Positions 3,257 to 24,533 of a stretch of DNA of 34,342 bases are shown here, piece by piece. Position 1 is the stretch's first letter. Each line of letters starts with the position of its first letter. The translations under genes and the position numbers were made by a program. The stretch is from Prevotella sp. (lineage in GTDB: Bacteria; Bacteroidota; Bacteroidia; Bacteroidales; Bacteroidaceae): NCBI GenBank assembly GCA_017524385.1, contig JAFWSS010000022.1, positions 1 through 34,342 of the forward strand, written 5' to 3'. The notes below the pieces were generated by a model. The model ran no database searches. It was not told the origin of the DNA and worked only from the letters and a program-made list of their open reading frames with translations.

Positions 3257-3272
3257 ACGTTCACTTTTTCTC

Positions 3273-3342
3273 CAATCTCAAATCTCAAACCTCCAATCTC
3301 AAACCTCCAATCTCAAACCTCAAACCTCAAATCTCAAATCTA
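3273..3342. repeat. 7-bp tandem array, 10 units
   Basis: Ten uninterrupted 7-bp units mixing CAATCTC, AAATCTC and AAACCTC. The array fills the gap between two minus-strand genes, and its last unit overlaps the stop codon of the FISUMP gene (3340-3342). The opposite strand reads as GAGATTT/GAGGTTT repeats. Confidence 0.9.
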
Positions 3343-6300
3343 TTTCACCGTGAACTTCTTTCCGTTTCGGATGTAGATGCCAGGCTTGAGGGAGCCTTCG
3401 ACCTTGATGCCCTGGAGGGTGTATGTTGCATCGTCGGAAGGAGATGAACCGGTGGTGGTCACACAGAAGATGCCATCGGTGTCGAAGTCGAAGCCGTTGG
3501 TGGAGCCGCTGCCGGCAAGTACGGCGCGTACGACGACGCCGGAGCGTCGTTGAGCCGCCGTTGTTTTGATGCTCGCCGACGTAGAGGTGCGCTGGATGTA
3601 GATGGACAGTGCCTTGTAAGCCACATTGGTGACGTTGTCCTCTTCGCTCAGCCAAAGGTAGGTCTGTGAACCTTCATTACTGTAGTTCGAGTCATATTTG
3701 TATCCCGTCATCGGGAAGAAGATGGAGTTTCCGTTGGGCCCCTTGAAGCGCAGCCCCGGTACGTTGTTCACCGTTGCCAGGGATATGCTGCATTTCTTGA
3801 GGAGTTCATTGGCTTGGTTGAGTGTTGGCATCACCCATTCGTCGCCCCAAAGTGTTGTTGCCACGTCGTATTTCGTTCCGGCGATGTTGGCGCCGATGTC
3901 CTGCACGGTGGAGGAAGAGCCGTTGGCGTAGCGGTAGTTGCTCCAAGAGTAAGTGGCCTTCGTCGTGGTCTCCCCCCAGGCATAGAAGTCGCCGTATTCC
4001 TCTGGAGCGGAGGCACCCACATTGCAGGTAGCCCACAGCGTGCCACTCGGCAGTCCGAGGTTGACATACTCATGGTTGCCGGTGTCCGGATCTGGGTCAG
4101 GGTCGGGGTCCGGGTCCGGGTCAGGAGCCGTTGAGAATTTGAAACGCCCGCCTTTCCACTTGAAGTTGCTGCCTGAAGTGTTGACAGCGAAATTGAATCC
4201 TTCAGGTGCTGTGATGACGCACGGCCTGTCTGTTCCGATGAGTTCGCAGGCGTTGCTCTTCAGTTTCACCGCCGAAGCAGGAATGGTGAGATATTGCAGG
4301 TTGGTGCAAGCCCCCATCATATTGAGTGTGGATTTCCCGCTGGACATGGTGGAGTCGGGAATGACGAAGTTGGAGATGTCTAGTTTTTCCAGTCCGCTGA
4401 ACGCGAACATCAGTCCCATGTGCGTCACCTTCTCGGTGTTGAATTGACTCACGTCGATGTCCGCCAGGTCGGAACAATAGTAGAACATGGCCGACATGTC
4501 GGTGACGTTGGCGGTGTTGAAGTGGGTCAAGTCCAGCGCGGCGAGGGTGCTGCAATAGGTGAACATCCCCTGCATGCTGGTTGCATCCGAGGTGTTGAGA
4601 TTGGCGATGCCGGTGATGGTGGTCAATGCCGTCATGCCGTAGAACCATTGGTGGCACGTGGCGGGCCTTGCGTCCTTGAATGAAGCATCGAACACCACTT
4701 TCTTGACGGAAGAGGCTTTTGCCAGCCATTTCGGTGCGTTCTTGCCGGTGTTCAGGTCATAGGCCGTCCCCGAGCGCGACGCCCTCTTGCTGTCGTAGTA
4801 GAACGTCAGAGTGGAACTGCTGAGAATGGCGTAAGGAGCGTCGGTGTCTGGTGGTGTCGGGGGTGTTTCGACCTCCACTTTTTCCACGGGGCGCACGAAG
4901 GCTCCTGTGCGCCTTTGTGCCACTTGAATCTTCGGAGCGTTCGCCGTCTTGATGTAAAGGACGTTGGCCTTCTGCGCATCAGAGGCGTTCACTTCCGACG
5001 TCCAATAGTTGCACGACACGTTGAGACTGTATTCCTTCCCATCGTAACTGCATCCCGAAAAGGGGAGGAAGATGCTCTTGCCGCTGGGCCCCGTTGCACG
5101 GTAGCCCTTGTGGCCATTGATGGTCTCTTCCTTCCACGTGCACTTCGTGCGCAACTCCTCGAACTGAGCCATGGTGGGCAGGCATACGTCAACCATCTTT
5201 TTGTCATCGGGGTCGTAGATGGCCTTCTTTGCTGCCACGTCGTATACCGTGCCGGCGATGTCGCTGCCGATGTCCTTCACCGTGGCTGCGGAGCCGTTGG
5301 CGTGCTGGTAGTTGGCCCAGGTGTATGTGGCCTTCGTGGTGGTCTCGCCCCATGCGTAGAAGTCGCCATAGGCAGCCTCTTCCGCTGCTCCCACGTTCAT
5401 GTCCGCCCATTTCACACTCAGTCCGAGATCCACCAAGGCTACCTCGGTGTCATTTACTATCTCGGTTGTTTTGACATGTTCCACGGCGCGTATGACGAGA
5501 CCCGTGCGCCTCTGCGCCACGGTAATCGTCGGCGTGGTGGCGGTCTTTATAAAGAGGGTGTTGGCCCTCTGATTGTCGGAAGCATTCACCTCCGACGACC
5601 AGTAGTAGGTGTATATGCCCACGTTGTGCATGCTGCCTTCAAAGTTGGAGCCGGAGAAAGGCAGGAAGATACTCTTGCCGCTGGGTCCCGTGACGCGGAA
5701 GCCATTGTGACCGTCGACGGTCTCCTCCTTCCACGTGCACTTCGTGCGCAGTTCCTCGAACTGCGCCGTGGTGGGCATGCACACCTCAGCCTGCTTGTCT
5801 GTTTCCGGGTCGTAGACCTCTGTCTTTGCGGCCACGTCATACTCCGTGCCGGCGATGTTGCTGCCGATGTCCCTCACCGTGGTGTTCGAGCCGTTGGCAT
5901 ATTGGTAGTTGCCCCAGGTGTAGGTGTCCTTCGTGGCAGTCTCGCCCCAGGAGTAGTATTCGCCGTAAGCAGACTCGCTGTCGGCTCCCACGTTCTGCGA
6001 GCACCATTTCACGCTCAGCCCGAGGTCCACCAAAGAGGCTTGTGCTGTTTCGCCTGGGTCCTCATCCGTTGGTTTGACATGTTCCACGGCGCGGATGGCG
6101 AGACCCGTGCGCCTTTGCGCCACGGACATCTTCGGCGTGGTGGCAGTCTTGATATAAAGGGTGTTGGCCCTCTGATTGTCGGAAGCATTCACCTCCGACG
6201 TCCAATAGTAAGCGGATACGCCCACGTTGTGCATGCTGCCATCATAGTTGGAGCCGGAGAAGGGCATGAAGATGCTCTTGCCGCTGGGCCCCGTGACGCG

Positions 6301-7929: not shown

Positions 7930-8029
7930 CTTGTTTGTACTGTTTGCATGGTTGGTAAAATGACAGACGCGAAGGGTTCTAAAACACACATTTCCGAAGA
8001 ATAATGACACGCGCGACATTTTTGCGTTG

Positions 8030-8037
8030 CAAAATTA
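8030..8037 (-). promoter_or_regulatory. Candidate -7 box for the FISUMP gene
   Basis: On the minus strand this reads TAATTTTG, matching the Bacteroidota TAnnTTTG consensus. It implies a start of transcription near 8023 and a leader of about 94 nt to the ATG at 7929. I see no convincing upstream TTTG at the usual spacing. Confidence 0.5.
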
Positions 8038-8104
8038 CGCAAAAAAAACGATATAAGGGCATTTTTATTGAAATTTGAAGATTTATGAATGAAAAAAGGA
8101 TGAA

Positions 8105-8149
8105 GAAGTTGGCGAAGATAGTGAAGTGGGCGAAGTTAAAGAAGTTAGC
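8105..8149. repeat. 9-bp tandem array, 5 degenerate units
   Basis: Five 9-bp units of the form GAAGTTNNC (two have changes in the core). The unit is the reverse complement of the AACTTCNNT unit at 222-338, so the two arrays belong to one sequence family in opposite orientations. It sits between divergent genes, upstream of both promoters. Confidence 0.75.
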
Positions 8150-8204
8150 GACCACAGCCGGGTGTGAAGGGTTCTTCACCCACTTGGCACGATTTTTTTC
8201 GTTT

Positions 8205-8239
8205 TTTGTTGGATTATTGTTTTTTTTATCTTATCTTTG
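8205..8239 (+). promoter_or_regulatory. Promoter of the double-SH3 protein gene
   Basis: TATCTTTG at 8232-8239 matches the Bacteroidota -7 consensus exactly. A TTTG at 8205-8208 lies 23 nt upstream, slightly longer than usual. The predicted transcription start near 8246 leaves a leader of about 30 nt and excludes the in-frame start at 8237. Confidence 0.65.
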
Positions 8240-8275
8240 CAAAAATCTTTTAATAAAGGACTAATACCAACAACT

Positions 8276-8776
8276 ATGAAAATGAAATCTTTTATTACAA
8301 CGTTGTTCCTTTTGTTGGCAATGACGTGCAACGTGATGGCTGGAGAACTATCCGGCCCCAAGAGTAATGAGGTGCAGGAAGTCACTGGTCCCTTCACTAT
8401 CATCATCACAGGAAATGGAGTCATCGGCCGTGATGGCCCTGGAGGTGTTGACACAGGGGTGCGCTTCTACAAAGGTCAGAAACTCACTTGCTACGGTTTG
8501 GAGAAAGGTTGGTACAAAGTGAAATATGGCAACGGTGTGCGTTGGGTGTCGTCTGAGTACGCCAAGGTTGAGAGTACCACTTCTGCCACCATCACTTATG
8601 TTGTCATCACAGGCAACCGTGTCATCGGAAGGACTTCCCCCGCTGGAGCAGCCACCTCGTATCGGTTCAACAGAGGTGATAAACTGCCTTACCTTGGAAA
8701 ACAAGGCAGTTGGTTCAATGTGGAGTATGATGGAAAAAGCCTTTGGGTGTCGAGCGCATACAGTTATGTGCAATAA
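8276..8776 (+). CDS. Secreted protein with two bacterial SH3 domains
   Basis: A 166-aa protein exported by a signal peptide (about residues 1-22, ending VMAGE). It contains two tandem SH3b-like units of about 55 aa, each with the same landmarks: VIGR near the start, a central KGQKL or RGDKL, a W(Y/F)(K/N)V strand and a final WVSS(E/A)Y. Bacterial SH3 domains commonly bind peptidoglycan or proteins in the envelope. There is no attached enzyme domain, so it may be a binding or inhibitor protein. It is a single-gene unit: its own promoter lies upstream and a strong hairpin terminator follows. The start at ATG 8276 was chosen from the promoter position and the signal peptide. Confidence 0.8.
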   Translation: MKMKSFITTLFLLLAMTCNVMAGELSGPKSNEVQEVTGPFTIIITGNGVIGRDGPGGVDTGVRFYKGQKLTCYGLEKGWYKVKYGNGVRWVSSEYAKVESTTSATITYVVITGNRVIGRTSPAGAATSYRFNRGDKLPYLGKQGSWFNVEYDGKSLWVSSAYSYVQ

Positions 8777-10026: not shown

Positions 10027-12747
10027 TTAATAATAATTCTTCGTCATCTCGTAGAATTTCTGCAAGCGTGAGGGTGTTTGGGTGAAGAATTGATATGCGT
10101 CCCTGGATTGCAACCCCATGAATCCCTCACAAGCCTTGCATTGTTTTCCCGGTTTGCATACGTTGCACTGATACGACCTGGTGATGCGCACCACGCATAC
10201 CACACCCTTTCCTGGCCGGTTGTTCTTGATGTTGTCGGCATACTGCTTGCTGTCCACAAGTGCGAAGGCGTACATGCCGAGATCGACATACCTGTTGTTT
10301 CCACCCAGCATGGGGAATTCATAGCGGATGTAAGCATCAGGCGTCCCCGTCTTCGCGAATAGCGTGAGGTTGACGTTCTCGCTCCTGTTGAGATCGAGCA
10401 CACAATCACGCATGGGTGAGAGCAATTTGTAATCTTTGTCTTTCTGCGCCTCATGCAGTTTTTCAAGGAAAGCATTCCATGTGCTGTTGATGGCTCCGAC
10501 CGACCTCTGCCCCAACACGCATCCCGGGTATTCGGCACCCGACTGTACGAGTGAAGGCAAAGTGTCTCCGCGCTGTTTGATGAAAGAAGCATGTACGGCC
10601 CTTTTGCCAATCATGCGAGACCACGCCTCGGCCAACTTGATGCAGTTCCACATGTTGTCGCCCTGCCCCAAAGTCCACGGCACCAGTCTGTCATGGAAGT
10701 CATCACCGTCATAGAAACGTTCGAGTCTGAGGTTGGTGTATTCTGGTGCTATTTCCTCGAGACCGAACTGTTTTTGCTCCACGTCGAGCGTTTCATTGGT
10801 GAACAGCCCATTGAAGAGATTGAGGTCGCTGACATAATTGTTGTCATAACTGGTGTCGTAGAGGTATGACAGCCAGTCGGTGAAGTATCTGTTGCGCTGG
10901 TTGGTGTTCTGCGGGTCATCCGCCTTCCTGAAGGCCAGCATGCCGTGGTCGAGTGTGAAGAAGTTGTTGGTACCCTCCACGGGCAGTGTAGTGACGGATG
11001 CCTCCAACCTTTGGCTGGTCATGGCCAAGGCAGCCAATGCTACGGGATAGACATCGTCGGAACGAGACAAGAATGTGGTGAAGTTGCATCCTCCCCAATG
11101 TGAAGTTTTCTTTGCCCACACCATGGTTTTCCTTCCAAAGAAGTTGACATGGGTGTCGTCGTCAGACCTTGAATATCTTCTCGGACTGGAGGTGTTCATA
11201 TCCAGCAAGTTGGGATTGGTGAGCACCGATGGCAACGCCACGAGCGGTTTGAAGACAGAGCCCACGGAGCGCCTTGAAAGCGATGTGTTGCGAGTGGTCA
11301 TCTTCATGCTTTCAGGCAAATCCTCATAGTCGAACAACGACGTGTAGAAAGGTGTGGCGAGAACCTGCCCTGTAGCCATGTCCATGATGGTGACCGACAT
11401 GTCGTATTGTTCCTTCTCCTGTCTGGCGGGCTTGTTATTCCCTATGCTACGTTGCAGGGAGTGGAGATATCCCTCGATTTCCCGTTCCATTGTCTTTGAC
11501 AGCATGGGGTCGATGGAAAGCTCCACCTTTTCGACGTTGTCACGGTTGGAGAGATGCCTTGACAGTCCCCTGAGCATCTGCTGTGTGAAAAGGTCGGTTT
11601 GTGCCGGGTCGATGAAGAACCGGCTTTGCCCCATGTTGGACTGTACCAAGCAAGACAGCATCCTTGAAGGATCCTGTTTTTGAATGACAAACTCTCCCAG
11701 TTTCCTATCGCCCCCATCATACACCAGCAATTTCATGCCATCGACAAAAGGTATTTTATCAGGCCTTTTCTCTCCCGTCTGCGGTTTTTGCAGCGTCTTT
11801 GCATTTCCCTCACCCACCACGATGATGTTGTTGCTGTGTGAGATGATCAGCGAATCGTGGGAGTAGCAGATAAGGAATTCGGCCTGCCCCCTCTCGTTGA
11901 TATGGTCACGCAAGTCGATGTTGATGCTGTGTCCCCCTCCACTTTTGAAAGCGTCCAGGTAATATTTGTAGTAATCTATCGGCTCCCTCTCTCCCATGAG
12001 CGTTCCCTCGCTCATCACCGCATGGAAATTGAGAGGTTTTTCTCGAGTCAAACTTTCCTCGTTGTGGAGCGGCAGCATGCTGTTGCCATAGGTGAGGAAC
12101 ACCGTATTGGTGTCGGTGAACAGGCAGTTGGGTGCACCATATACAGACCCTGTCCATGGATTCTTTGCCAGTGACACCTTGAACATGGATGGCACCAATT
12201 GAATGTACTGCAAATCAATTGGCCTGACATGCTTCACCCTGATGTCTTCGCCTTTGAAACGTATCTTGAAATAGGTTTCATCGAGTTGTTCACTCTGTCG
12301 TTGCAGCAACTGAGGCAGGCGACTGTTGAAATAGAATTTCCTTAGTTTCTCACTCTTGATTCGCTCGGGATGTATGCCCACCAACCTCAGGTCGGAAGCC
12401 TCGATGTAAGGCTTGTGTTCCTCGCCGTAAGGAAGGTCGAACTCCAGGGCAGGGTATCTCTTGTTGAGGCTGTCGAGGCATGTTGCATTCACCGACTCAT
12501 CGACATCAGCCACCAATTCCTTGAGCAGCATGTTGGCCTTGCCAACGAATCCCTCGTCCTCACCGACTTTCTCTGCCGGGTTGTAGAGTTTTCCTGCACC
12601 CGCTTTTCCCAACGGCGTGCATCCCTTTATGAAAGACAAGGCGAGTGCCGCCAACAAGACGAGCACAGGCAAGCCTGCCACATAAAAAGGCCTTAGCTTG
12701 ATTTTCTTGTCGCTCTGCAGCCTTGATTCAATTTTTGGTTCCTCCAT
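10027..12747 (-). CDS. Penicillin-binding-protein-type transpeptidase, single-pass membrane protein
   Basis: A 906-aa protein with a short cytosolic tail, a membrane helix at about 20-40 and a large periplasmic part. Residues about 50-405 are an N-terminal domain I cannot assign. The transpeptidase domain starts near 413 with the family's ID-P-x-L-type motif. The active-site motif SVFK is S497-K500, the second motif is S563-x-D565 (Asp in place of Asn, as in PBP2-type enzymes), LGQG lies at 693-696, and KTGT starts at K799. All three catalytic motifs are intact, so peptide cross-linking activity is plausible. An unusual CxxC-x5-CxxC cluster (C861, C864, C870, C873) lies near the C-terminus. 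I chose ATG 12747; a TTG at 12789 in the same frame would overlap the upstream stop. It is the last of the seven-gene run that also encodes a SEDS-like protein, its likely partner. Confidence 0.8.
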   Translation of the reverse strand: MEEPKIESRLQSDKKIKLRPFYVAGLPVLVLLAALALSFIKGCTPLGKAGAGKLYNPAEKVGEDEGFVGKANMLLKELVADVDESVNATCLDSLNKRYPALEFDLPYGEEHKPYIEASDLRLVGIHPERIKSEKLRKFYFNSRLPQLLQRQSEQLDETYFKIRFKGEDIRVKHVRPIDLQYIQLVPSMFKVSLAKNPWTGSVYGAPNCLFTDTNTVFLTYGNSMLPLHNEESLTREKPLNFHAVMSEGTLMGEREPIDYYKYYLDAFKSGGGHSINIDLRDHINERGQAEFLICYSHDSLIISHSNNIIVVGEGNAKTLQKPQTGEKRPDKIPFVDGMKLLVYDGGDRKLGEFVIQKQDPSRMLSCLVQSNMGQSRFFIDPAQTDLFTQQMLRGLSRHLSNRDNVEKVELSIDPMLSKTMEREIEGYLHSLQRSIGNNKPARQEKEQYDMSVTIMDMATGQVLATPFYTSLFDYEDLPESMKMTTRNTSLSRRSVGSVFKPLVALPSVLTNPNLLDMNTSSPRRYSRSDDDTHVNFFGRKTMVWAKKTSHWGGCNFTTFLSRSDDVYPVALAALAMTSQRLEASVTTLPVEGTNNFFTLDHGMLAFRKADDPQNTNQRNRYFTDWLSYLYDTSYDNNYVSDLNLFNGLFTNETLDVEQKQFGLEEIAPEYTNLRLERFYDGDDFHDRLVPWTLGQGDNMWNCIKLAEAWSRMIGKRAVHASFIKQRGDTLPSLVQSGAEYPGCVLGQRSVGAINSTWNAFLEKLHEAQKDKDYKLLSPMRDCVLDLNRSENVNLTLFAKTGTPDAYIRYEFPMLGGNNRYVDLGMYAFALVDSKQYADNIKNNRPGKGVVCVVRITRSYQCNVCKPGKQCKACEGFMGLQSRDAYQFFTQTPSRLQKFYEMTKNYY

Positions 12748-12785
12748 GATCGTCAATCTATTGTCAAGTAAGTATTCAAAAAGTC

Positions 12786-15497
12786 TCAATAGGCGAAATT
12801 CACGTCCTCAGGCAGTGCCTTGGAGAGATATTTCACCACGGAGAGATAATATTTGGCATCCATGGTACTTTTCAAAGTAGAGTCTTTGCCCAAGATCTTG
12901 TCATTAGGGATAGTGATGACAGTGTCTTTGACTTTGACATCCATAAGCCGATAAGGATTGTTACAAACAAGAGAAATCAGGGGGTTGACTTCATCAACGT
13001 TTAAAGAATCCTTTTTCTCGTCCAACTCGCCTTTCTCGTTCACACGGCAAGCCGTTACCATGGCAGAGTCAACCACCGCGCTCGTCATGCTGTAATAGGC
13101 GTCGCTGAGTGGCTTCAGGTCGCTGGTTTTCTCCAACTTGAGGTGTGATACCTCAAAGGTGTCCACTTTCACATTGCTGATGCTGTCCCATTCGGCCAAA
13201 CATGCCAACTGGGTCATCAAGTTGCTAGTCTTGTCTCCCTTCCACACAATGGCTATGTCGCTGCTTTGTTGAGCCGGGGCTTTTGCAAACAGGTATTTTC
13301 CTGACATCAAACCTCCGAAAGCACAGATGACAGCAGTGCCGACTATCAGTCCCCAAAATTTCCAGTTGCGTGTCTTCTTCCTAAGGTCACGAAACAGATG
13401 ATCCAATTCATTTGACATTTTCTTGTTGGTTTTTTTTATGGTCGAAATATATAAACGTATGATGGGATATGCTTCTTCGGCTTTGTTCTTGTATTTGATG
13501 GTTTTGCCGTCCTTCTCCTCATCTTTTTTCTTTTTCTCTCTCTCAAGCGATTTGGAATGGATGAAATGCTCTTTGATGTCTTTACCCATCTTCTGGGTCG
13601 AGGCGTCTTCGAAAAGTGTCTTCAGCCTTTTCTCCACGACCTTGAACACCAGAGGGTGTGTTTCTTTCAGTTTGGCTATCTCCAACCATTTGCTCACATC
13701 GAGTAGTGTCTCCTTGCTCAGCAAAGGCTGGCCTGTTTGCCCCTTTTTCCCTCCCACCAATGCATGCTGCACCGACGGAAGCAAGGTGTATCTCACGAAG
13801 TCATCCCATGCTCTTGGCAAATCCCTGGCAACCTCCAGCAGGCGTTCACTGTTGTCGAGCACCTCGGGAGCCTTTCCCCCCGCCAGCAACGAGGTGAGTT
13901 CTTTTTCCTCGACCTTCTCCAGTGCCACCTGCTCTGGAGAGCGCCCCTCCTTGCTTGATGCGTCCAGCACCCTGTAGAAAGCCTTCAGCAACGCACCGAT
14001 GTCAGCGAAAGAATAGTCCTGTGCAGCCTCGCTCACCCATTTCTCTATCAGTTGCCTGTAGGCGGGTTTCAAACTTTTGAAATCATCTGGTATGGCGACG
14101 TCCTTTGGAGGGTTGAAATATTTGGTAGGAACAAAAGGATATTTTTTCATGCATTCCACCACCTTTTTCATCGAGTTGAGTTTGGGAACGACAAATTGTC
14201 CGAACAACTCGCCGAAAGCAGTCTGGACACCATTGTTCTCGTGGCACTCATGACGTTTGAATATTTCATACCAATCGATTATCGACTGCGGATTGCCGAA
14301 TTGCAGCGACTTGACAAATTTGCCATCAAGCATTTGCTTCACCTCGTCGCTCATCCCTTTGCGGAAGAGGAAGGAATGTCTTCTTTCTTTCAGATAACCC
14401 GACAGCGCCTTCTTCTGCAATCCGACCACCTCGTCGTCCTTGTATTGCATGAGGTTGAACACATCTTCATGGAAACCCTCCAGCGTCCATTCCAACGACG
14501 GTTTGTGCGCCCATTTGGCGTAAGCCTCCTTGGTGGCACTGTCCATCTGTTTGTAATAGCGCCTGAATGCATCCCACCCTTTGGTGTCGAGGAGGTCGAA
14601 TCCATTGCCCAACGCCCTCCATATGGTCCAGTCGCCTTCACGCAACTGCTCCACGGGCATGGCGACGATTTTGAAAGCTCTTGTCAACTGTTCGCGGGTC
14701 AACAGCGGCTCTTTCTCCCCGGGCAGTATGATGGTTTGCAACAGCTTTTCCTCCTTGTTGCCTAACTTTGCCGGTGTTGCTAGTGCCTGTTCCCATGTCA
14801 CCGACAAGGCATCGTCAGGTGGCACCATCTGGCTCGCCTTGTCATAGACAACGACAAGCACGCCTTCCAAGACATCGGCGAAATGCTCATCGACACAGAA
14901 GCCGAAAGAGGCGTATCGCCGCAAGTCGACGGGCATCGAATCCACAGCCTCGGTGAGCACCTGCAACTCCTTTGAGAACACGCCGTCGCAGAAATACTGT
15001 TCCCCGACGTTGTCGAGGGCGACATACAAGGTCTTTCCCTGTAGCAAGGCCGCCTTGACATAAGTGGCCAAGGTGAGTGCCTTCTCCGACGGTATCGTCT
15101 CCTTGACTTCCACGTCGGTGGCTAACGCCACGCGCCCTTCAGGCATGGCATCAATCCGCGGGACCGCCTGGATGAGGGAAGTGATGTTGACCCCGATGGC
15201 ATTCATCTCATCACGGCTCACCTCGTATCCTGCGCGGAAGGGGTAGATGCGACCCAGCGCCCTGCTCACCACATGGGAACCTTGCACATGGATGACGATG
15301 TATTTATCGACATCTGCATAGTATCTCCACACCAGGGAGGCATGCTTGGGTGAGAGCACTGGCGGATTGTCGAGGAACAGACCGCTCAATCCACTGGCAT
15401 GGTGCGAATAAGCCTCCGAGTAGAACAACGTGGTGTCGCCTATGCTGTCGGGCCAAGAGCCAGAGGCGAATTTTGATATGTTGATAGTCTTTATCAT
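12786..15497 (-). CDS. Large single-pass protein of unknown family in the SEDS/GTPase operon
   Basis: A 903-aa protein I do not recognise. Residues about 1-640 look soluble and mixed alpha/beta, with no P-loop or enzyme motif that I can see. A Lys/Glu-rich segment (about 645-675) leads to a membrane helix at about 715-733, followed by about 170 residues that should lie outside the cytoplasm if the N-terminus is inside. The N-terminal 250 residues faintly recall GTPase-associated proteins described in NTP-dependent conflict systems; I cannot confirm this. It lies 17 nt downstream of one GTPase-like gene and 38 nt upstream of the transpeptidase gene. An adaptor joining the cytosolic switches to the periplasmic enzyme is a reasonable guess. 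Confidence 0.75.
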   Translation of the reverse strand: MIKTINISKFASGSWPDSIGDTTLFYSEAYSHHASGLSGLFLDNPPVLSPKHASLVWRYYADVDKYIVIHVQGSHVVSRALGRIYPFRAGYEVSRDEMNAIGVNITSLIQAVPRIDAMPEGRVALATDVEVKETIPSEKALTLATYVKAALLQGKTLYVALDNVGEQYFCDGVFSKELQVLTEAVDSMPVDLRRYASFGFCVDEHFADVLEGVLVVVYDKASQMVPPDDALSVTWEQALATPAKLGNKEEKLLQTIILPGEKEPLLTREQLTRAFKIVAMPVEQLREGDWTIWRALGNGFDLLDTKGWDAFRRYYKQMDSATKEAYAKWAHKPSLEWTLEGFHEDVFNLMQYKDDEVVGLQKKALSGYLKERRHSFLFRKGMSDEVKQMLDGKFVKSLQFGNPQSIIDWYEIFKRHECHENNGVQTAFGELFGQFVVPKLNSMKKVVECMKKYPFVPTKYFNPPKDVAIPDDFKSLKPAYRQLIEKWVSEAAQDYSFADIGALLKAFYRVLDASSKEGRSPEQVALEKVEEKELTSLLAGGKAPEVLDNSERLLEVARDLPRAWDDFVRYTLLPSVQHALVGGKKGQTGQPLLSKETLLDVSKWLEIAKLKETHPLVFKVVEKRLKTLFEDASTQKMGKDIKEHFIHSKSLEREKKKKDEEKDGKTIKYKNKAEEAYPIIRLYISTIKKTNKKMSNELDHLFRDLRKKTRNWKFWGLIVGTAVICAFGGLMSGKYLFAKAPAQQSSDIAIVWKGDKTSNLMTQLACLAEWDSISNVKVDTFEVSHLKLEKTSDLKPLSDAYYSMTSAVVDSAMVTACRVNEKGELDEKKDSLNVDEVNPLISLVCNNPYRLMDVKVKDTVITIPNDKILGKDSTLKSTMDAKYYLSVVKYLSKALPEDVNFAY

Positions 15498-15514
15498 ATG
15501 GTAAACGTTTTCCT

Positions 15515-16981
15515 TTACATTTTACTTTGCATATATAAGAGATGCTCGCCACGCTGGCGCAACCCTTCCGAACTGACACCATTCTGACATAGGATGTCGG
15601 TGAGCAACTGATAACTACCCAGGCACAGATGCTGCTCGCGTCCGCTGTTGACCTCCAACGTAAACACCTTCAACTGCTCGTCACCCTCCCAATAGAACCT
15701 GGTGACATCGTCTTTGTCGTTCTGGTAGATACGGAAAGCGGCATCGATGGGAGAGGCGGTGAAATAGACGTGTGGCGGCAAACGCTTTTCCGACTCCCGC
15801 AGCAACTCATAGGGGCTCTTCTGGTTGTTGATTTTTGCCAACAATCGTGGCACAACGCCCTCCGCCATCGAGGCGTTGAGAAGATGCCAGAATGCCCTGC
15901 CCACACCGTCGCCAAGACTCTGCTTGACATGCTTCTCCCATCCGGAAGGAAACCTTGCCATGTTGCCGATGGTTCCTTCAAGGATTTGCTTCTGTAGGTC
16001 GGCCATCATCCATTCGTATACCTTGTTTCTTGAAGAGGGTTCCGAACTGATGATAGGCAGGAGTTGTGCCTCCTTGTTGCCAGGAAAGTTGACAAGCAGC
16101 TTGTCTGCTCCCCTGAAAGCCAGGTAAGCGTGGGGCCGATGGTTTCCCTCCTTCATGAAATGCGCCACGTGCTCAGCCAATCTTCCCACGCTCGCGCCAT
16201 GGACGAGATTGTCGCAGATGACCAAGTCGGTGGCCTGCTGGCAATAGACGAGTGGATAGAAATAGAAGAACACCATTCGTGCCTTGTAGTCTTCGAGTGC
16301 GGCCGTTTGACGCAACGTGAGTAGGTCCCAGCAATGCTCAAGGGTGAGCAGCACGGAGTCGGTCTGCAGTTCCGTCAAGTGGGAGAGCATGTAACGTCCA
16401 CCGACCGGTTTGCGGCTCACCTCCTGGTATTGTCCCATGGAAAGTTCGTGTCGCAAGTGGCTCCAACCGATGTAGTTGCCAAATCGGTAATTGCTTGTTG
16501 CTTCGACCGAGGTATAGCCTTTGACCAAATCGAGTTCTTTGTACACAATCAGTTTTGTCTCCTTGCCAGCGGGGTTGCGCCATGTCGAGAGGTAGAAGAC
16601 CCCCTTGTCCCTTTTCTCGATGAACTGCCTTAGGGTGAAGAACATGCCCATCACCTCCTCGCTCATGTTGAACACCTCCCCGGGGATGTTGAGGAAATCC
16701 ACTTCCAATCGCCTGCCGACCTTCCCTTTTGAGAGCCAGGCTGCATAATGGTTGTCGGGGCGGCAGGCATAACGCTCCGTCCCGCGCATGCCTCCCGTCT
16801 TGCTGTTGAACGTGTCGTAGAAGTAGGTGCCGAAACTGCTGTGAGGGTAACTCAGAGGCAGCTGCTCAGGTGCGTAGCCCAGCAAGCCGAAGGCATGGAT
16901 GAGGTCGTAGAGGAGATAGCTCTTTCCGCTTGCCCTCTCCCCAACGACGGCTATTCTGATGCGTTTTGTCATACCCGTCAT
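15515..16981 (-). CDS. Soluble P-loop GTPase-like protein, paralogue of its upstream neighbour
   Basis: A 488-aa protein without membrane helices. The P-loop GERASGKS lies at 14-21 right after a beta strand (IRIAVVG). A G3-like DFLNIPGE lies at 95-102. A late strand ending in AYLAFRGAD (about 285-293) stands where GTPases have the NKxD guanine motif, but with Arg-Gly-Ala-Asp. It shares with the next gene upstream the landmarks YACR-x2-NHY, TDSV, ATD(L/I)VICD, PHVYF and a C-terminal G-S-(Y/F)-Q-L. The overall pattern recalls the TRAFAC-like 'double-GTPase' proteins of conflict systems, which is inference. It lies 11 nt downstream of its paralogue and 17 nt upstream of the unknown 903-aa gene. 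Confidence 0.78.
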   Translation of the reverse strand: MTGMTKRIRIAVVGERASGKSYLLYDLIHAFGLLGYAPEQLPLSYPHSSFGTYFYDTFNSKTGGMRGTERYACRPDNHYAAWLSKGKVGRRLEVDFLNIPGEVFNMSEEVMGMFFTLRQFIEKRDKGVFYLSTWRNPAGKETKLIVYKELDLVKGYTSVEATSNYRFGNYIGWSHLRHELSMGQYQEVSRKPVGGRYMLSHLTELQTDSVLLTLEHCWDLLTLRQTAALEDYKARMVFFYFYPLVYCQQATDLVICDNLVHGASVGRLAEHVAHFMKEGNHRPHAYLAFRGADKLLVNFPGNKEAQLLPIISSEPSSRNKVYEWMMADLQKQILEGTIGNMARFPSGWEKHVKQSLGDGVGRAFWHLLNASMAEGVVPRLLAKINNQKSPYELLRESEKRLPPHVYFTASPIDAAFRIYQNDKDDVTRFYWEGDEQLKVFTLEVNSGREQHLCLGSYQLLTDILCQNGVSSEGLRQRGEHLLYMQSKM

Positions 16982-16992
16982 TGCTGTTTATG

Positions 16993-18663
16993 TCAAACAT
17001 CATTCTGCATGATTCTCAACAAGCCTCCCACTTCGTAGTTGCCCAGTCCATGCTGCGCAAGGATGTCTATGGCCAGTTGGAAACTTCCAAAGCAGACATT
17101 GGAGCACATATTTCTGAAAAGATAATCCTTTCCGTCAATGGTTTTTTTGAAATCCGATGCCGGCCGCCCCTTGTCGTTTATGTAATTTTCGTAAATGTCA
17201 TAGTCGCTCGTGATGGGTGTGCAAGAGAAATAGACATGCGGAACAATATCATCCACAGCCTTGCCTCCATCACTTGATATTAACTGTGTCCTGTTGAGCA
17301 ACCTCCAGAGTCCCTGACCCTTTCCGCCCAACCGGCTCTTGATATGCGATTTAAGATTGGGTGTTTCTCCTTTCAGGATGCCACTTCCTCCATTGGTGTC
17401 AATCAGCGCTGCTATCAACTTGTCCACGTCGGTGGTGACCCCGTGCGGGGTGACAGCATCGGTCTCATCCAAAGGCAGCAACTTGCTCTCTGGGATACCC
17501 AGGAATCTGGCGAGTTTCTCTCTCGGGATAATCAGGCGCGGGTCAAGGTAATGCTGCATGGCATAGGCAAAGAGCGAGTAGATGGCATTATGCCGCTCTT
17601 CTGTTTTCATATCAGCCAGCGTCTTGTCATTGAGCATCTTGTAGGTTTTCTCATGGGGAGCCATGATGAAATCTACATTACGGAAAGCAAGATAGACGTG
17701 GAGTTGGTCGTTATCACTGCAATCCTTAATGAAACCGCAAAGGCCATTAATCAAATCAGCGAACGACATTTCCTTCTCTTTGGATTCCTCACTGACGAAA
17801 ATCCTGTCGCATATCACGATGTCGGTGGCCAGGGAGCAATAATGGAAGAAGACAAAACTCCTGTCAATGCCTGTTGAGGAGAAATCAGTCTTGTCAAATC
17901 CCAATTCATTGGAAGAGAATGAATTAATCCAATCCCCAATGCTGTTGATGACGGAGTCGGTGTCGTATTCAAAGAAATGCTTGAGCAGGTAGGCTCCGCT
18001 GATTTTTCTCTCCGACCCCTTGACAAGTTTGTAACTCTTGGTATTCAGTTCAGAGTACACCCTGTTCCAATTCTTGAAAGACAAAATCAGTTCGGTGTTT
18101 TCATTCCCTTTTTCATCGGATGCCCCTTGCACATATTCCACAATCCAAATCTTATCGTTCGTATTCTCTTGCTTCCACAGCTTGGCGACAAACACATTCT
18201 TGGCCCTCCTGAGTTGGTCTCTCAAGGCAACATATGCGTTCAACCTGGACATACCAGACCTGGGAACATCGAAAATTTCACCTGGTATATTGAGGAAGTC
18301 CATGTCATATTTGTCATGGCTGTTGTTGTTGTGTTTGACAGCCGCACCATAATGATTCCCTTGCCGACAGGCATACAGCGGCGTCCTGCCATCGCCTCCA
18401 ATCTCGTCGGGGGAATAGGTCCCAAAGTCCTTGAATGACTGCAACGTGGTTTCCAACGGACTGTAGATGGCAGCCATCTTCTCCAAAGAGGTGAGAATGT
18501 CTTTGAGCAAGAAACTCTTGCCACTGGATGCCGTACCCACCACGGCAAGGCGGATGCGCTTCCTGCCTCTTACTTCATACCTCCAATAACTGCTCATCCT
18601 TTTACATAGTTGGTCGTAAGGAGCAGCAGAAAAACTATACCTTAAACGATGAATTGACTCCAT
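16993..18663 (-). CDS. Soluble P-loop GTPase-like protein, first of a tandem pair
   Basis: A 556-aa protein without membrane helices. After an extra 37-residue N-terminus it has strand RLAVVG and the P-loop GTASSGKS (43-50), DFLNIPGE (122-129), TDIVICD (about 280-286) and VYLAFRNVD (323-331), the last in the place of the G4 motif. The same order and spacing occur in the next gene, so the two arose by duplication and then diverged widely. A second in-frame ATG at residue 23 would also be a possible start. The gap of 50 nt to the upstream SEDS-like gene and 11 nt to the downstream paralogue fits one transcript. Nucleotide specificity cannot be told from the sequence because the G4 motif is not canonical. 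Confidence 0.78.
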   Translation of the reverse strand: MESIHRLRYSFSAAPYDQLCKRMSSYWRYEVRGRKRIRLAVVGTASSGKSFLLKDILTSLEKMAAIYSPLETTLQSFKDFGTYSPDEIGGDGRTPLYACRQGNHYGAAVKHNNNSHDKYDMDFLNIPGEIFDVPRSGMSRLNAYVALRDQLRRAKNVFVAKLWKQENTNDKIWIVEYVQGASDEKGNENTELILSFKNWNRVYSELNTKSYKLVKGSERKISGAYLLKHFFEYDTDSVINSIGDWINSFSSNELGFDKTDFSSTGIDRSFVFFHYCSLATDIVICDRIFVSEESKEKEMSFADLINGLCGFIKDCSDNDQLHVYLAFRNVDFIMAPHEKTYKMLNDKTLADMKTEERHNAIYSLFAYAMQHYLDPRLIIPREKLARFLGIPESKLLPLDETDAVTPHGVTTDVDKLIAALIDTNGGSGILKGETPNLKSHIKSRLGGKGQGLWRLLNRTQLISSDGGKAVDDIVPHVYFSCTPITSDYDIYENYINDKGRPASDFKKTIDGKDYLFRNMCSNVCFGSFQLAIDILAQHGLGNYEVGGLLRIMQNDV

Positions 18664-18713
18664 ATCATTTGATGTTTTTAAGTTTATTCAATTAGTCGCA
18701 TGTCTCTAATGGT

Positions 18714-21700
18714 TCACATCCAGCCATTATCATATTTCTTGATGGTTCCCCTGCAAGTGACTGCCGCCATGAATGCGAGGAGGAAGGCAGTCTCCAACGC
18801 CTCTCCCACGGCATCGACCCCGAATCCAGGATTGAGTCGGCCGGTGAAGGGCAGCCTGCCCACATAGGAGAGATAAATGTAAAAACTGGTGCCCACCCAC
18901 ATCATCATGGCTAGCAACCTCCACTGCATCGCCCTGGTGAGACGTGCATCTTTGTCGTAATAGGACAGACTGAACTGCATCACCATCCACATGATGATGA
19001 AGAGGAGCAGGAAATACACAGCGGAGGTGAGATATATGCCGTAGGTGCCGAAGAACGCGGCCGGCATGCTCAGGTCGTTGAGCACGACAGGCGACTGCCC
19101 CGAACTGATGGACGTATGGAGGAAATGGTTGTCGTTGGAGAGCGGGTCGCGCCCCTGTGCAGGACGCATGTAGTGACTCATGATGACCATGAACTCTGCG
19201 TCGCTCTCACTGTACCTATAGCCGCTTTTCTCCAGGTCGTCGAAATTGGAGTAGAGCATCACCCTTCGGGCGAAGCGGTCGTAGTTCACCTTTTCGGGGC
19301 TGAACAGCAAGCTGCATACAAATGGCATGGCTACCATCAAAACCAGCAGCACGACCGGGATGGCTTTCGCCCAACGTTTCTCTTCCTTCATCTTTTGATA
19401 TACCTCTTCGTCATAGGCAGTAGGGCGCTTCATCAAGAAATAGAAGCAGAAGACACACATCGCAAAGCCCAGATAATTGGTCATGTAGCCATGGTCGCTG
19501 ATCATGGCAGCCATGATGTATGCCAAAGAGATGAAAAACATCTGACAGAAGATGACATGCCCCGGAACCTTGCCCTCGTACATATTCACGCTGGTGAGTG
19601 CACGTGTCATGCCTAGAATGACAACCAGCGTGATGAACGCCGTGCCGAAATTCCCTGCGAACTTCCCTATGGCATACAAGATGATGAACAATATGACATG
19701 TGTGGGGAACAAACTCCTCAGTGCAGCGAAAAATGCCTCTGTCACAAAAGGCTTCCAACACACGACTGCCAAGATGAACACCGACAAGATGAGCAGCAAC
19801 CAACTGAATCCCATATGGAATAGCATGAAGGCAGCCAGCACCAACAAGACGGCGGCCAGAATCAGATGGTCGGGGTATTTCTTGCCTTTCTTCTGCCACT
19901 TATTATTTATCCACCTCGCCATCTTGTCTGTCTTTTTCTGCCAGGAATTCTCCATGCTCTCCCATTTCGTGGAAAGCCATTTCCACATCCAGTCGGCAAG
20001 AAGCCACAACACCAACACCGCAAACTCCACCGCCAGCAATGCATAAACAACAGAACGGTGGGTGTCGTTGATGCCGTATGTCTTCATCCATTCGAACGGA
20101 TTGAGCTTAAACACCTCGTCATGGAAATAGGAGTCGATGATACTTTGGCTCACCTGCTTGTCGGCCACAAAGAAGAACAAGAAGCCCAAGCCCGCAAACA
20201 GCAAGGCGCACACCATCCAATGTGCCATGCGCCGCATCGGTTTCTTGTCTGTGGCATAGAGGCGCAGCGGCGTGTTGAACAGCATGGCAAGGCTGAAGAA
20301 GAGAAGCATCATCAGCGACGTGGAGAACGGCATGATGCCCGTGAGTTTCTCAAAATAGGGATATGAATAACTGAGTTTCAGCGTTATGAGCGACTTGCAT
20401 ACGCAATAGGCCATGCAACAGATGAGGAGCATGGACAGGTAGGGCCTGTAATTGGCGATATGCTTGGGGTTGTATAGTGCGACTGTATTTCGGACATACA
20501 CCGGCCCCACCTTGAGCCATGTCATCATCAAGAGCACCACGAGCACAGCAAGCGGGAGCCACAGGTAACCCATGATGAAAGAGCCCTTGATGAAGCCCAC
20601 ACGGCATTTCATCGTGTCTTTTCCCGAATGCAGGGTCATCTTCCCCAATGCAGGAATGACGCTTGCCGGATTTTTCACCAACTGCGCCTTGTCGTTGTTG
20701 CCCTTGATGCAAATGGAATCCTTCTGATGGAAGAACTCAATGTTGCAAAGGTCGAAATTGATTGCACTGGAGAATGCCGGCAGATAAAGGTCGCTCTTGG
20801 TGGGATAGGAGTTGTTGAGCTGCTTGATGGTGAGAATCTTGCTTGCCTTTTCCGCCCTCGTCTTCAACGAGTCCACCGACTCCACATAGGTGATGGGCCT
20901 CGGGAACGTGATGCGCAGTCCTTCCTGCGAGGGAATGATGGTGGCATGGCCGGCGCCCCATTCCGTCAGTTTGACGGCAGGCTTCATCACATAGTTGACA
21001 CCATCGACCCTGAAATAATCGTCTGAGTTGCCGCCATCCATGTAGCACCAGTCGGCAAGTCCGAAGAATTGCACCTTGAAACGTCCATCCTCAAGAGGCG
21101 CCTCGCCCTCATCGTTGTAATCGTCCTTCTTGCCATCAGTGGTCAACGTGGTCATCTCGTCGAGGATGACGAGGACGAGGTTGTCACCCTCTTTATTAAA
21201 GAAAGACCTCACTTTGCCTACCTGCATCTGAGAAAGATAGCTGACACTGTCCTGATGTGTCGCCCCTTCTCCTGCAAGTTTGAGATAGGTGGCGAGATGT
21301 CGGGCCATCACGTTTTTCTGCTCTTTGAAATCATCCCAAGCTTTCCATACGTCAGCCCCGGTGAAAGAGGTTTCCAATGTCTTGCCGTCGGGGGTGGGAA
21401 GCTTCAATTCCACCACCTGCCTCTCATCATTGCGGATGACATGCTTGTTGGGGTTTTCACCATTGATCTTGAAATACTGCAAGGTATCATGGAACTGTTT
21501 TCCCACACTCCATTTGAACGTCTGCGTTTTTGGCTGATAAGTGACGGTGAGGAAGTCGTGCGGCACGTTTTTCACACAAAAATCGCTGTTTTCACCAAAG
21601 GTCACCGATTTGGCACCCCCCAAGGTGTATTCATCGATGGTGAAGACCATTTTCCTCTCCACTTTTGCCGACATCATCCAACAGAGCGAAAAGACAACCG

Positions 21701-21797
21701 CCAAGAGAATGAAAGCTATGGCGCCGGCCAAGTGGCTGCTGGAGTCTCTGAATTTGTACAGGCTCAACTGATTGAGCAGTTTGTAAAACAAGTTCAT
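18714..21797 (-). CDS. Polytopic membrane protein with a SEDS (FtsW/RodA)-like C-terminal half
   Basis: A 1027-aa protein. A first membrane helix (about 24-43) is followed by about 360 residues, beta-rich and probably outside the cytoplasm, then a helix at about 408-430 and a further set of ten or more helices to the C-terminus. The last third matches the SEDS order of landmarks: GYRYSESD (from about 859) for the G-x-G-Y-Q-x(3)-S segment, LNDLSMPAAFFGTYG with D908 for the TDFIFAV-x-EE-G segment that carries the essential Asp of RodA/FtsW, and RLPFTGRLNPGFG (from about 981) for the LPFTG-x-PLPF segment. Known SEDS proteins of about 400 aa polymerise lipid II glycan chains. The family call is mine by eye. 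ATG 21797 is preferred over a TTG at 21848. It probably works with the transpeptidase encoded at the operon end. Confidence 0.7.
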   Translation of the reverse strand: MNLFYKLLNQLSLYKFRDSSSHLAGAIAFILLAVVFSLCWMMSAKVERKMVFTIDEYTLGGAKSVTFGENSDFCVKNVPHDFLTVTYQPKTQTFKWSVGKQFHDTLQYFKINGENPNKHVIRNDERQVVELKLPTPDGKTLETSFTGADVWKAWDDFKEQKNVMARHLATYLKLAGEGATHQDSVSYLSQMQVGKVRSFFNKEGDNLVLVILDEMTTLTTDGKKDDYNDEGEAPLEDGRFKVQFFGLADWCYMDGGNSDDYFRVDGVNYVMKPAVKLTEWGAGHATIIPSQEGLRITFPRPITYVESVDSLKTRAEKASKILTIKQLNNSYPTKSDLYLPAFSSAINFDLCNIEFFHQKDSICIKGNNDKAQLVKNPASVIPALGKMTLHSGKDTMKCRVGFIKGSFIMGYLWLPLAVLVVLLMMTWLKVGPVYVRNTVALYNPKHIANYRPYLSMLLICCMAYCVCKSLITLKLSYSYPYFEKLTGIMPFSTSLMMLLFFSLAMLFNTPLRLYATDKKPMRRMAHWMVCALLFAGLGFLFFFVADKQVSQSIIDSYFHDEVFKLNPFEWMKTYGINDTHRSVVYALLAVEFAVLVLWLLADWMWKWLSTKWESMENSWQKKTDKMARWINNKWQKKGKKYPDHLILAAVLLVLAAFMLFHMGFSWLLLILSVFILAVVCWKPFVTEAFFAALRSLFPTHVILFIILYAIGKFAGNFGTAFITLVVILGMTRALTSVNMYEGKVPGHVIFCQMFFISLAYIMAAMISDHGYMTNYLGFAMCVFCFYFLMKRPTAYDEEVYQKMKEEKRWAKAIPVVLLVLMVAMPFVCSLLFSPEKVNYDRFARRVMLYSNFDDLEKSGYRYSESDAEFMVIMSHYMRPAQGRDPLSNDNHFLHTSISSGQSPVVLNDLSMPAAFFGTYGIYLTSAVYFLLLFIIMWMVMQFSLSYYDKDARLTRAMQWRLLAMMMWVGTSFYIYLSYVGRLPFTGRLNPGFGVDAVGEALETAFLLAFMAAVTCRGTIKKYDNGWM

Positions 21798-21844
21798 ATG
21801 TTCTTGATTGTTTGGTGAAACATTTGAAGAAAGACGGGGTTCAT

Positions 21845-23722
21845 TCAAAAAAATGATGTCTTGGAATATCTCTTTATTTTCTTTAGAGTTCCCTGAAGGA
21901 TGGATCTTGCACCATCGAAACTCTCACCCTTCTCGTCCAACCGGCTCAACAAGGAGTCCACGCTGTTCTTGTACGGATTCAGCAGTTCTGTCCGTATTTC
22001 AGCATTTACGTCTTTATAGGTTACAGGGAAAGTGTAGCGATAGTCCTCAGGGTATTTTTTGATGATGGTGTCAACTTGGTCGCTGTAATACCTGGCGCAA
22101 TTCTTGTAGGCATTCACAGTGGCCATCCTAAGGCCCGTCTTGAGCTCGTCGTCGTTGTAGTAAGGGTCTTTGAGCCACGACTGGCCATCCTCCTTCTCCA
22201 CTTCATCCACATCCTTGATGCTTTTGCATTTCTCGCTCTTCGCAATCAATGGCTTTACATGCTTGAAATAGTCGTCGAGGATGGTATGATTCTTCTTGAC
22301 ATCACCGTTTAACAGCACATCGTCATGTTTCAATAATTTTTCCAACCGTTTGTAGAGTTGGTTCAAGGTTTTCCCGTCCTTGCTCCATTGATTCGAGGAC
22401 AGCAGTTTGCTGCATTTGTCAGAGAGCACCTTCGCATAATCATTGGTCAAGGTGGAATCGCAGGTACGCACATCCTCTACCTTCAGGATGGCCTTGCCCG
22501 ATGCATCGAGCAGTTCCCTCTCCAAAGTGAGGTCCTTGCGTTTCTTGCTATACAACTCCGAGGCCTTCTCGTAGCTCATATTCTTCAAACCTTTTACCTC
22601 TTCCAGGAAAGCGGTCTTGTAGTCATAAGGCAGCATGGGAGCAGTGGGGGGAGCCGTCAACACCTCATAGGCCTCGTACCCACCCCAGATGAGCAAACCC
22701 GACAAGATGATGCCCAAGATGGCCGCTTGCCACCATTTTCCCTTCGACAAAGCTCTTTCCAGCATGTTTCGCCGAGGTTGGCACTTGGGCAGCAGAGCGT
22801 CGTGGAAGAGCATCTCTGCATCCGTGGCATCCAAGCGAGCCAGGTCGCGTATCACAAAGTGGCCGGCACTGAAAGGAATGGGCAAGACATTGTAAATCTG
22901 TTTCTCAAAACACATTTTTTGGATGTCGCGCCACAATTCGGGCATCCCCTTCGTCACGAGGGTTTGGGCGGCATTGTCCTTATATGCCACGGGCGCATTC
23001 ATCAAGTCGGTCTTGGTGACAAGGACGTAGACACCATCCGTGCGACCAAGATATTCCTTTTCCATCAAAGCTTTCATCACCTCCCGCATCCTGCGCTCCT
23101 GCTTCTGGATGTTCTGGCGGCAGTCAATGCAAAACACATGGACAAGGAGATGGTCGCTCCTCACATACATGCCGACATCAATGGGGCCATTCTGGGGTAT
23201 GGTGGCTTCCGTGAAGATGATGGGATATGCCTTCCCCATCAAATGTGGCCGATAGATGACTGGATGGTTGACCTTGCCTGTGCTTTCGTCCTTCGGAACA
23301 TGTTGCAACATCTTGTTGGCAAAAAGTCCCTTCATCCGTCTGATGCGAGCAGACATCCCTTCTGTGGCTGTGGGGTCGAAATGCTGCACCTCCATGCCTT
23401 CAAGCGAGAGCAGTGAAGCGATGACCAAGGTCTTGCCCGACTTGGGCATTCCCCAAACCATCACCTGGGTGGCTTCGTCCATGTTTCTCATACCGGCTTC
23501 ATTGGCATTCCCCATAGGAAGAGGCGATGCCAATTCGCCATCCAGTATCATTCCTGCCACATCATGTCCCAACACACCAGCCAACTCGGCGCGTGACACA
23601 TCTCCCCATGACACCATCTCACGAAGGTCGGACATGGTGTATCCATACGGATTGAATGCTATGCTCTTGACTATATCCTGCATATCTGGTTTTCCATTAT
23701 TTTCATCTGTGACCACTATCAT
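21845..23722 (-). CDS. Membrane-anchored P-loop GTPase-like protein
   Basis: A 625-aa protein. A helical N-terminus (about 15-60) precedes a P-loop domain: VWGMPKSGKT (P-loop 91-98), a strand PIIFTEATIP near 167-176 in the G3 position without a clear DxxG, LVTKTD at 234-239 (a good G4 motif for guanine) and PFSAG near 283-287 as G5. A single membrane helix at about 332-351 separates it from about 270 mostly helical, charged residues that should be extracytoplasmic. The layout, a cytosolic GTPase followed by a helix and a long helical domain, loosely recalls TssM/IcmF, but I see no real match. It overlaps the upstream gene by 20 nt, indicating coupled translation. Confidence 0.75.
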   Translation of the reverse strand: MIVVTDENNGKPDMQDIVKSIAFNPYGYTMSDLREMVSWGDVSRAELAGVLGHDVAGMILDGELASPLPMGNANEAGMRNMDEATQVMVWGMPKSGKTLVIASLLSLEGMEVQHFDPTATEGMSARIRRMKGLFANKMLQHVPKDESTGKVNHPVIYRPHLMGKAYPIIFTEATIPQNGPIDVGMYVRSDHLLVHVFCIDCRQNIQKQERRMREVMKALMEKEYLGRTDGVYVLVTKTDLMNAPVAYKDNAAQTLVTKGMPELWRDIQKMCFEKQIYNVLPIPFSAGHFVIRDLARLDATDAEMLFHDALLPKCQPRRNMLERALSKGKWWQAAILGIILSGLLIWGGYEAYEVLTAPPTAPMLPYDYKTAFLEEVKGLKNMSYEKASELYSKKRKDLTLERELLDASGKAILKVEDVRTCDSTLTNDYAKVLSDKCSKLLSSNQWSKDGKTLNQLYKRLEKLLKHDDVLLNGDVKKNHTILDDYFKHVKPLIAKSEKCKSIKDVDEVEKEDGQSWLKDPYYNDDELKTGLRMATVNAYKNCARYYSDQVDTIIKKYPEDYRYTFPVTYKDVNAEIRTELLNPYKNSVDSLLSRLDEKGESFDGARSILQGTLKKIKRYSKTSFF

Positions 23723-24533
23723 ACCAGCTCTTAGGACGCCTGATGTTGAAATATTTTGTCAGTATGAGAAGGCAGCACAGAACTGTGGCCACGAAACTGC
23801 TGCCATTGGGTTTGTGGGGGGTGCTGAACTGCAGGTTTGCCTCGCTGCGCGTGAATGCTGTGTCGCCCTCGCCGTAAGGCACAGCCTCCTCATGCTCGTA
23901 AATGATGGACGATACTTTTTTGTATTCTTCCGTCCAGTCATACCCCGCAGTCACAATGTAATGCAAGTTGCGGGGGGTGGAGACATTCCACACGCTGGCA
24001 TCATTGACAGAGGCGAGCCATTGCTTGCGCTGAGTGCAAATGGTGTCGTAATCAGCAGGCATGAGTCGACGCTTAAGGCTGGATTTCTTCGCCAGGCGGT
24101 CATTGTCGCCTCTCTTTTTCAACGTCTTGTCGTATGCCTTCACACGTGTCTGCGCATAATCCTTGTATACAGAGTCGATTTTCGACACGTCGTCTGCAGT
24201 GGCGAACATGGTCTCACGCAACTCCTTTCGATGGTCGAACACAAAGAGAAAATGTATGAAGGTTATGCTTCCAGCCAAGAAGATGACGATGGCTCCTGCT
24301 ATGGCCGCCACCTCTTTTGGAAGGCTGTGGCGCTTGTCACGCGAAGCCTTGCTCTTGCACATCACGCGGAGACACCAGTAAAGCAGCAAGGCTCCCGCAA
24401 GCAGCAACGATATGGACAACACGTGATTGCCTTCGAGCAGGTATTCTGTCCCCAGGAATGAGATACAGAAGAAGGCAAAGAAGGCCAGAGCCGTCAAAAA
24501 CGAGGCAAATACTGCTATGGTTTTCTTCTTCAT
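23703..24533 (-). CDS. Small membrane protein, first gene of the SEDS/GTPase operon
   Basis: A 276-aa protein I cannot assign to a family. Membrane helices are visible at about 7-28, 38-57, 75-99 and 245-260, with a charged region of about 145 residues (100-244) between the third and fourth that contains many Lys, Asp and Tyr. If the N-terminus is cytosolic that region is outside. It overlaps the membrane GTPase gene by 20 nt, so the two are probably made together and may form a complex. A candidate promoter lies about 112 nt upstream. A role as a sensor or scaffold is only a guess. Confidence 0.7.
   Translation of the reverse strand: MKKKTIAVFASFLTALAFFAFFCISFLGTEYLLEGNHVLSISLLLAGALLLYWCLRVMCKSKASRDKRHSLPKEVAAIAGAIVIFLAGSITFIHFLFVFDHRKELRETMFATADDVSKIDSVYKDYAQTRVKAYDKTLKKRGDNDRLAKKSSLKRRLMPADYDTICTQRKQWLASVNDASVWNVSTPRNLHYIVTAGYDWTEEYKKVSSIIYEHEEAVPYGEGDTAFTRSEANLQFSTPHKPNGSSFVATVLCCLLILTKYFNIRRPKSWYDSGHR

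Follow-up and report, generated by a model that had tools for sequence, protein, structure and literature searches.

Known SEDS-transpeptidase pairs such as RodA-PBP2 and FtsW-FtsI are steered by divisome or Rod proteins, and the actinobacterial RodA-PbpA-FHA-phosphatase-kinase cluster is controlled by Ser/Thr phosphorylation. DO-GTPase/GAP1 systems, many of them near the membrane and with variable effectors, are proposed to act in conflict (Kaur et al., 2020; PMC7159879). We describe an operon of Prevotella sp. that resembles a SEDS-transpeptidase pair joined to a DO-GTPase-like switch while failing the sequence tests for membership of both. The operon occupies positions 10027-24533, minus strand, of contig JAFWSS010000022.1 (G000:C22; assembly GCA_017524385.1), the whole of which (34,342 nucleotides) is referred to below as the window; the draft genome comprises 5.05 Mb in 272 contigs and is 99.9% complete and 6.56% contaminated. 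A sequence-only reading of the window had described seven minus-strand genes with short gaps or small overlaps; all seven open reading frames (ORFs) are present, and its descriptions of their products agree with the motifs, paralogy, hydrophobic segments and predicted SEDS fold reported here. In operon order, the genes are:

P0007 (TM0), 23703..24533, minus strand: small membrane protein, 276 aa
P0006 (GTPm), 21845..23722, minus strand: P-loop protein with TKTD, one hydrophobic segment and a long tail
P0005, 18714..21848 (ATG at 21797), minus strand: polytopic protein, SEDS fold by prediction
P0004 (dG1), 16993..18663, minus strand: soluble GTPase-like protein with P-loop and PGE motif
P0003 (dG2), 15515..16981, minus strand: P0004 paralogue, soluble and GTPase-like
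P0002 (GAPx), 12786..15497, minus strand: N-terminal domain of ~300 aa, helical middle, hydrophobic segment, C-terminal domain
P0001, 10027..12789 (ATG at 12747), minus strand: membrane-anchored transpeptidase-like protein with GSVFK, SDD and KTGT

With the longest starts, the successive gaps are -20, -4, +50, +11, +17 and -4 nt. The operon has a G+C content of 0.504, its flanks 0.537 and 0.547. Neither promoter nor terminator scans helped to define a transcript (20 and 21 sites vs 13.5 and 13.9 in shuffled sequences).

The gene set is more than a chance association, because 34 of 47 loci repeat both the set and its order and none has the genes arranged differently; the same recurrence rejects a gene-calling artefact, and the earlier expectation that the genes are kept together in related genomes is borne out. 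The loci derive from a scan of 84,980 species (one genome per species, overlapping the genus set below) with two peptide patterns, which distant relatives may escape; genes were found by simple ORF rules and BLAST, and their order was read by eye. The conserved order is SEDS-like protein, GTPase, P0002-type protein and transpeptidase, with P0002 and the penicillin-binding protein (PBP) fused in six loci. Nine of the other 13 loci are truncated at contig ends, and four (L137, L140, L141 and L150) are without a detected GTPase or P0002 gene. Adjacent core genes lie within 60 nt of each other in 170 of 199 pairs. Each of two pairs of loci, L119/L125 and L148/L155, derives from a single assembly and may represent one operon in two halves. 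Over 33 loci, the SEDS, GTPase and PBP distances co-vary (r 0.955-0.963), as they would under vertical descent.

The SEDS-like protein is present in 20 of 398 genomes of the genus (own genome counted) and, in a class-level sample of 396 genomes drawn at 90% completeness, in its own genome only. Records titled Prevotella or Prevotellaceae supply 41 of the 47 loci; by title wording, 12 are labelled as rumen or omasum, a further 22 have RUG codes, which we take to denote rumen genomes, and 13 carry other codes. More distant SEDS-like proteins (25-34% identity) occur in L157, L158 and L159, from other Bacteroidales assemblies and all at contig ends. A tblastn search of plasmids with P0006 found no match.

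Three classes of locus were distinguished. Class A, the window type, comprises P0007, P0006, the SEDS-like protein, two GTPases (one in some), P0002 and the PBP. Of 17 class A relatives, 12 have a GH25 gene, recognized by motif, after the PBP gene, and Pfam confirmed all three that were tested; no GH25 gene stands there in the window, L113, L114, L117, L125 or L130, and L117 has an SH3 gene in that place. In L113, a TIR-domain-like gene (by eye; 21852-23015) begins 13 nt past the transpeptidase gene. Class B comprises the SEDS-like protein, one GTPase, a P0002 domain, the PBP and a P0007 relative fused to a GTPase-like protein, often joined by another GTPase and by one or two unknown proteins; an SH3-type gene leads in eight of these loci. 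Past the class B GTPases, recurring unknown proteins of ~300-610 aa and ~300 aa (L137:14370-16553, L152:20542-22359) may be extra components, and Pfam gave nothing clear for those tested. In class C, the SEDS-like protein is followed by an unknown membrane protein (~370-450 aa), a GTPase extended at its N-terminus by ~250 residues, P0002 and the PBP.

Like RodA-PBP2 and FtsW-FtsI, the operon sets a predicted SEDS fold beside a membrane-anchored transpeptidase-like protein with intact motifs. It differs from them in that no sequence similarity was found for its SEDS part, which has an extra N-terminal domain, and in that its pair is co-operonic with GTPases, rare, and additional to ordinary genes. 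The actinobacterial RodA-PbpA cluster likewise joins a SEDS/PBP pair with regulators in one operon, but it relies on phosphorylation whereas the window operon has GTPases. With DO-GTPase/GAP1 systems, the operon shares its GTPases, often two, which have a conserved Walker B glutamate (PGE in the window) and are encoded immediately ahead of a large third protein, frequently close to the membrane (PMC7159879). It differs in that its proteins stay below the Pfam cut-offs, in that P0002 has no GAP1 profile match, and in that its core is constant whereas effectors vary there. None of the seven proteins has a Pfam match to a GASH/FNIII component, and PADLOC, searched for known defence systems, gave no match for them up to E 1. 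Canonical DO-GTPase2 and GAP1-N1 occur in 3 of 149 and 3 of 247 genomes, respectively, and are absent from the operon's own genome. On proteobacterial plasmids, canonical DO-GTPase/GAP1-type operons were seen in all seven loci fetched (L074-L080) of 29 matches, with metallophosphoesterase and GASH annotated in six. The words SEDS and transpeptidase are absent from the main text of Kaur et al. (2020; PMC7159879), and a literature search limited to open-licence papers found no description of such an operon. The sequence-only reading, which knew no described system of this composition, missed the DO-GTPase/GAP1 link of the GTPases.

P0005 is named SEDS-fold, and not filed as a member of the SEDS (FtsW/RodA) family, because the family sequence profile is not matched. 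Structure prediction gives its core (~441-1035) the SEDS transmembrane fold, RodA/FtsW clearly outscore alternatives in fold comparison, and the N-terminal domain (66-420) is weakly FHA-like. By sequence, P0005 has no PF01098 match, hhalign against 25 SEDS sequences found here gave 9.1% or less, and a PDB profile search returned no SEDS identity; the polytopic SEDS-like protein first proposed is therefore supported by its predicted fold and without a sequence match. The loop residues Y856, R858, R861, R862, N924, D925, P1000, T1002 and G1003 are invariant among 19 sequences. In FtsW, the catalytic Asp is D297, in the fourth periplasmic loop (PMC8765783). N924-D925, invariant in 19/19 sequences, may include its counterpart, but region 908-922 has pLDDT < 50.

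P0001 had been taken for a PBP-type transpeptidase, which its intact motifs support while curated family cut-offs are not reached. S-x-F-K, SDDVYP and KTGT are kept in all 22 stand-alone P0001-type proteins > 800 aa, and KTGTP in 39 of 40 rows of relatives, the one miss being a fragment of L127. In that locus (L050:3336-5977), the transpeptidase gene is split into two ORFs of 253 and 574 aa, through a broken gene or an assembly error. The L146 transpeptidase, outside the set of 22, has no SDD by pattern. P0001 matches NCBIfam PBP_1a at E 1.2e-5 (24.3 bits, below the cut-off of 508.75) and the Pfam transpeptidase family at 13 bits (cut-off 22.1), where a relative reaches 21.1 bits (E 2.1e-4). 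The PBP profile found no match among PDB sequences at E 0.01; against the single transpeptidase of P0025, a fusion protein of the same genome described below, it gave 20.8% vs 0.1% for the reversed profile, which we read as weak support.

P0003 and P0004 are paralogues (27% identity, E 6e-41), and the Walker B G128-E129 (PGE) is invariant in 24/24 proteins of their type; P0006 has the P-loop GMPKSGKT, and no PGE motif was seen in it. The P0003/P0004 family profile aligns with DO-GTPase2 (hhalign 88.6%, E 2.7e-6) and with DO-GTPase1 at E 2.1e-4, the latter no better than an ABC ATPase control (SufC by eye; E 2e-4, 0.0011 and 0.029). Canonical DO-GTPases reached E 8e-5 and 4e-5 against the same control; reversed profiles gave E 0.17-0.86 and P0016 gave 0.049-0.22. 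Because the DO-GTPase2 match beats the control by about two orders of magnitude, part of the apparent DO-GTPase signal is the common P-loop. Class B GTPases align with DO-GTPase1 (94.1%, E 1.3e-7, 220 columns), and P0006 aligns with class B GTPases (99.1%, E 7e-19) and with DO-GTPase2 (E 1.2e-7), while no profile match links the P0003/P0004 type to class B GTPases (1.3%). No window protein passes the Pfam cut-offs for DO-GTPase1/2, relatives scoring 18.1 and 14.2 bits vs 27, and the GTPase profiles found no informative family among PDB sequences. Together, the P-loop and PGE motifs, the remote DO-GTPase homology and the paralogy sustain the earlier view of GTPase-like proteins, two of them paralogous. 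P0007 matches the N-terminal part of the class B fusion P0020 (BLASTP 8e-13, 24% identity).

By eye, P0002 has one hydrophobic segment, near 712-733 and closer to the C-terminus than to the N-terminus; some relatives carry its N-terminal domain as a fusion with the transpeptidase. In eukaryotes, the DENN fold occurs in regulators of Rab, Rag and Arf GTPases. DENN module regulators (DENND1, DENND10, FLCN and C9orf72 complexes) are among the best fold matches of the N-terminal 300 aa, which appear weakly DENN-like, and the P0002 gene adjoins GTPase genes; a DENN-like regulator fold is thus a weak but pointed lead from structure prediction. An hmmsearch of PDB sequences with the class B P0002 domain gave three rows up to E 10, none of them DENN, and P0002 profiles found no informative family there. 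Profile comparison does not support plain GAP1 family membership, hhalign to eight GAP1 proteins giving 0.1% and 0.2%.

The operon supplements the ordinary wall synthases and does not replace them, because ordinary SEDS and transpeptidase genes exist in the same genome. PF01098 detects one ordinary SEDS gene each on C182 and C5, plus a SEDS-PBP fusion on C235, and PF00905 detects four ordinary transpeptidase genes (C5, C182, C134 and C34) as well as the transpeptidase of the fusion; the window's pair appears in neither search. The separateness from divisome and elongasome proposed earlier is supported by these genes. The fusion, P0025 (1432 aa; L014, G000:C235:6000-18000, 1278-8504), lies beside PP2C phosphatase- and FHA-like genes (by eye), is closer to the actinobacterial type than the window operon is, and is apparently a third SEDS system of the genome, under phosphorylation control.

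We favour, at a probability of about 0.58, an additional, dedicated peptidoglycan synthase, with a GTPase switch controlling its activity or its placement. The operon, its conservation, the fusions, the predicted SEDS fold, and the transpeptidase and P-loop/GTPase-type motifs are observed; that the pair polymerizes and cross-links, that it depends on GTP, in what order events occur and that it has a special wall role are our inference. P0005 would use lipid II to polymerize glycan strands, which P0001 would cross-link, as a pair analogous to RodA-PBP2 or FtsW-FtsI. P0003, P0004 and membrane-bound P0006 would bind GTP on the cytoplasmic side; the N-terminal domain of P0002 may act on the GTPases, and the membrane segment of P0002 could relay their state to the complex in the periplasm, with P0007 and P0006 as a putative membrane scaffold. 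Many class A relatives would also have a muramidase to open old wall next to the synthase. The synthase may serve a specialized wall task (shape, appendage or repair) of benefit in the rumen, and a wall role gains weight from the GH25 and SH3 genes adjoining relatives' operons. A bolder and less probable reading is that a bacterial small-GTPase circuit with a DENN-like regulator gates a private peptidoglycan synthase, which would be the first nucleotide-switched SEDS-transpeptidase pair, serving a wall job of rumen Prevotella outside division and elongation.

A conflict system of DO-GTPase/GAP1 type, anti-phage or anti-rival, in which the GTPases unleash wall synthesis or damage by a SEDS/PBP effector on attack, is unlikely. 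The DO-GTPase similarity, the paired GTPases, the patchy presence, the TIR-like gene directly after the L113 operon, and the conflict role, often near the membrane, proposed for such systems (PMC7159879) would fit it. The missing PADLOC matches, the co-varying distances (with the caveat on descent given above) and the same core in 34 of 47 loci speak against it; because effectors vary in the DO-GTPase systems described in that source, the constant core favours a fixed cellular task over conflict. The sequence-only interpretation of a separate wall-synthesis machine under nucleotide-switch control is partly supported by the predicted SEDS fold, transpeptidase motifs, GTPase relationship, conserved unit and separateness, while its suggested use in conflict is disfavoured. 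Equally doubtful is that the SEDS-fold protein handles another polymer, ligating or polymerizing a wall-linked glycan, with the transpeptidase-like protein attaching that glycan or acting as its partner: RodA/FtsW score clearly higher in fold comparison, P0001 retains its motifs, and the GH25 and SH3 neighbours indicate peptidoglycan. It is improbable that P0005 has no catalytic activity and instead senses lipid II or the state of the wall and reports to the GTPases, since its invariant loop residues and the intact transpeptidase motifs suggest catalysis. Least credible, and very improbable, is an envelope-spanning secretion- or appendage-related machine with local wall synthesis making room, of which a TagF match of the P0002 N-terminus would be a trace.

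Elsewhere in the window, 3340-8019 encodes a protein of 1559 aa that has a DUF285 stretch and, by eye, several near-identical repeats, and 32318-33907 an AAA-ATPase_like and PDDEXK_9 protein (Pfam E 6.8e-61 and 1.3e-17).

A SEDS-transpeptidase pair encoded with its own GTPases would make nucleotide control of wall synthesis directly testable with seven genes. Because sequence searches miss its divergent SEDS part, such synthases may be overlooked elsewhere. The DENN-like lead, if true, would bear on the origin of eukaryotic GTPase regulators, and the concentration of the operon in lineages from the rumen points to a wall function tied to that habitat.
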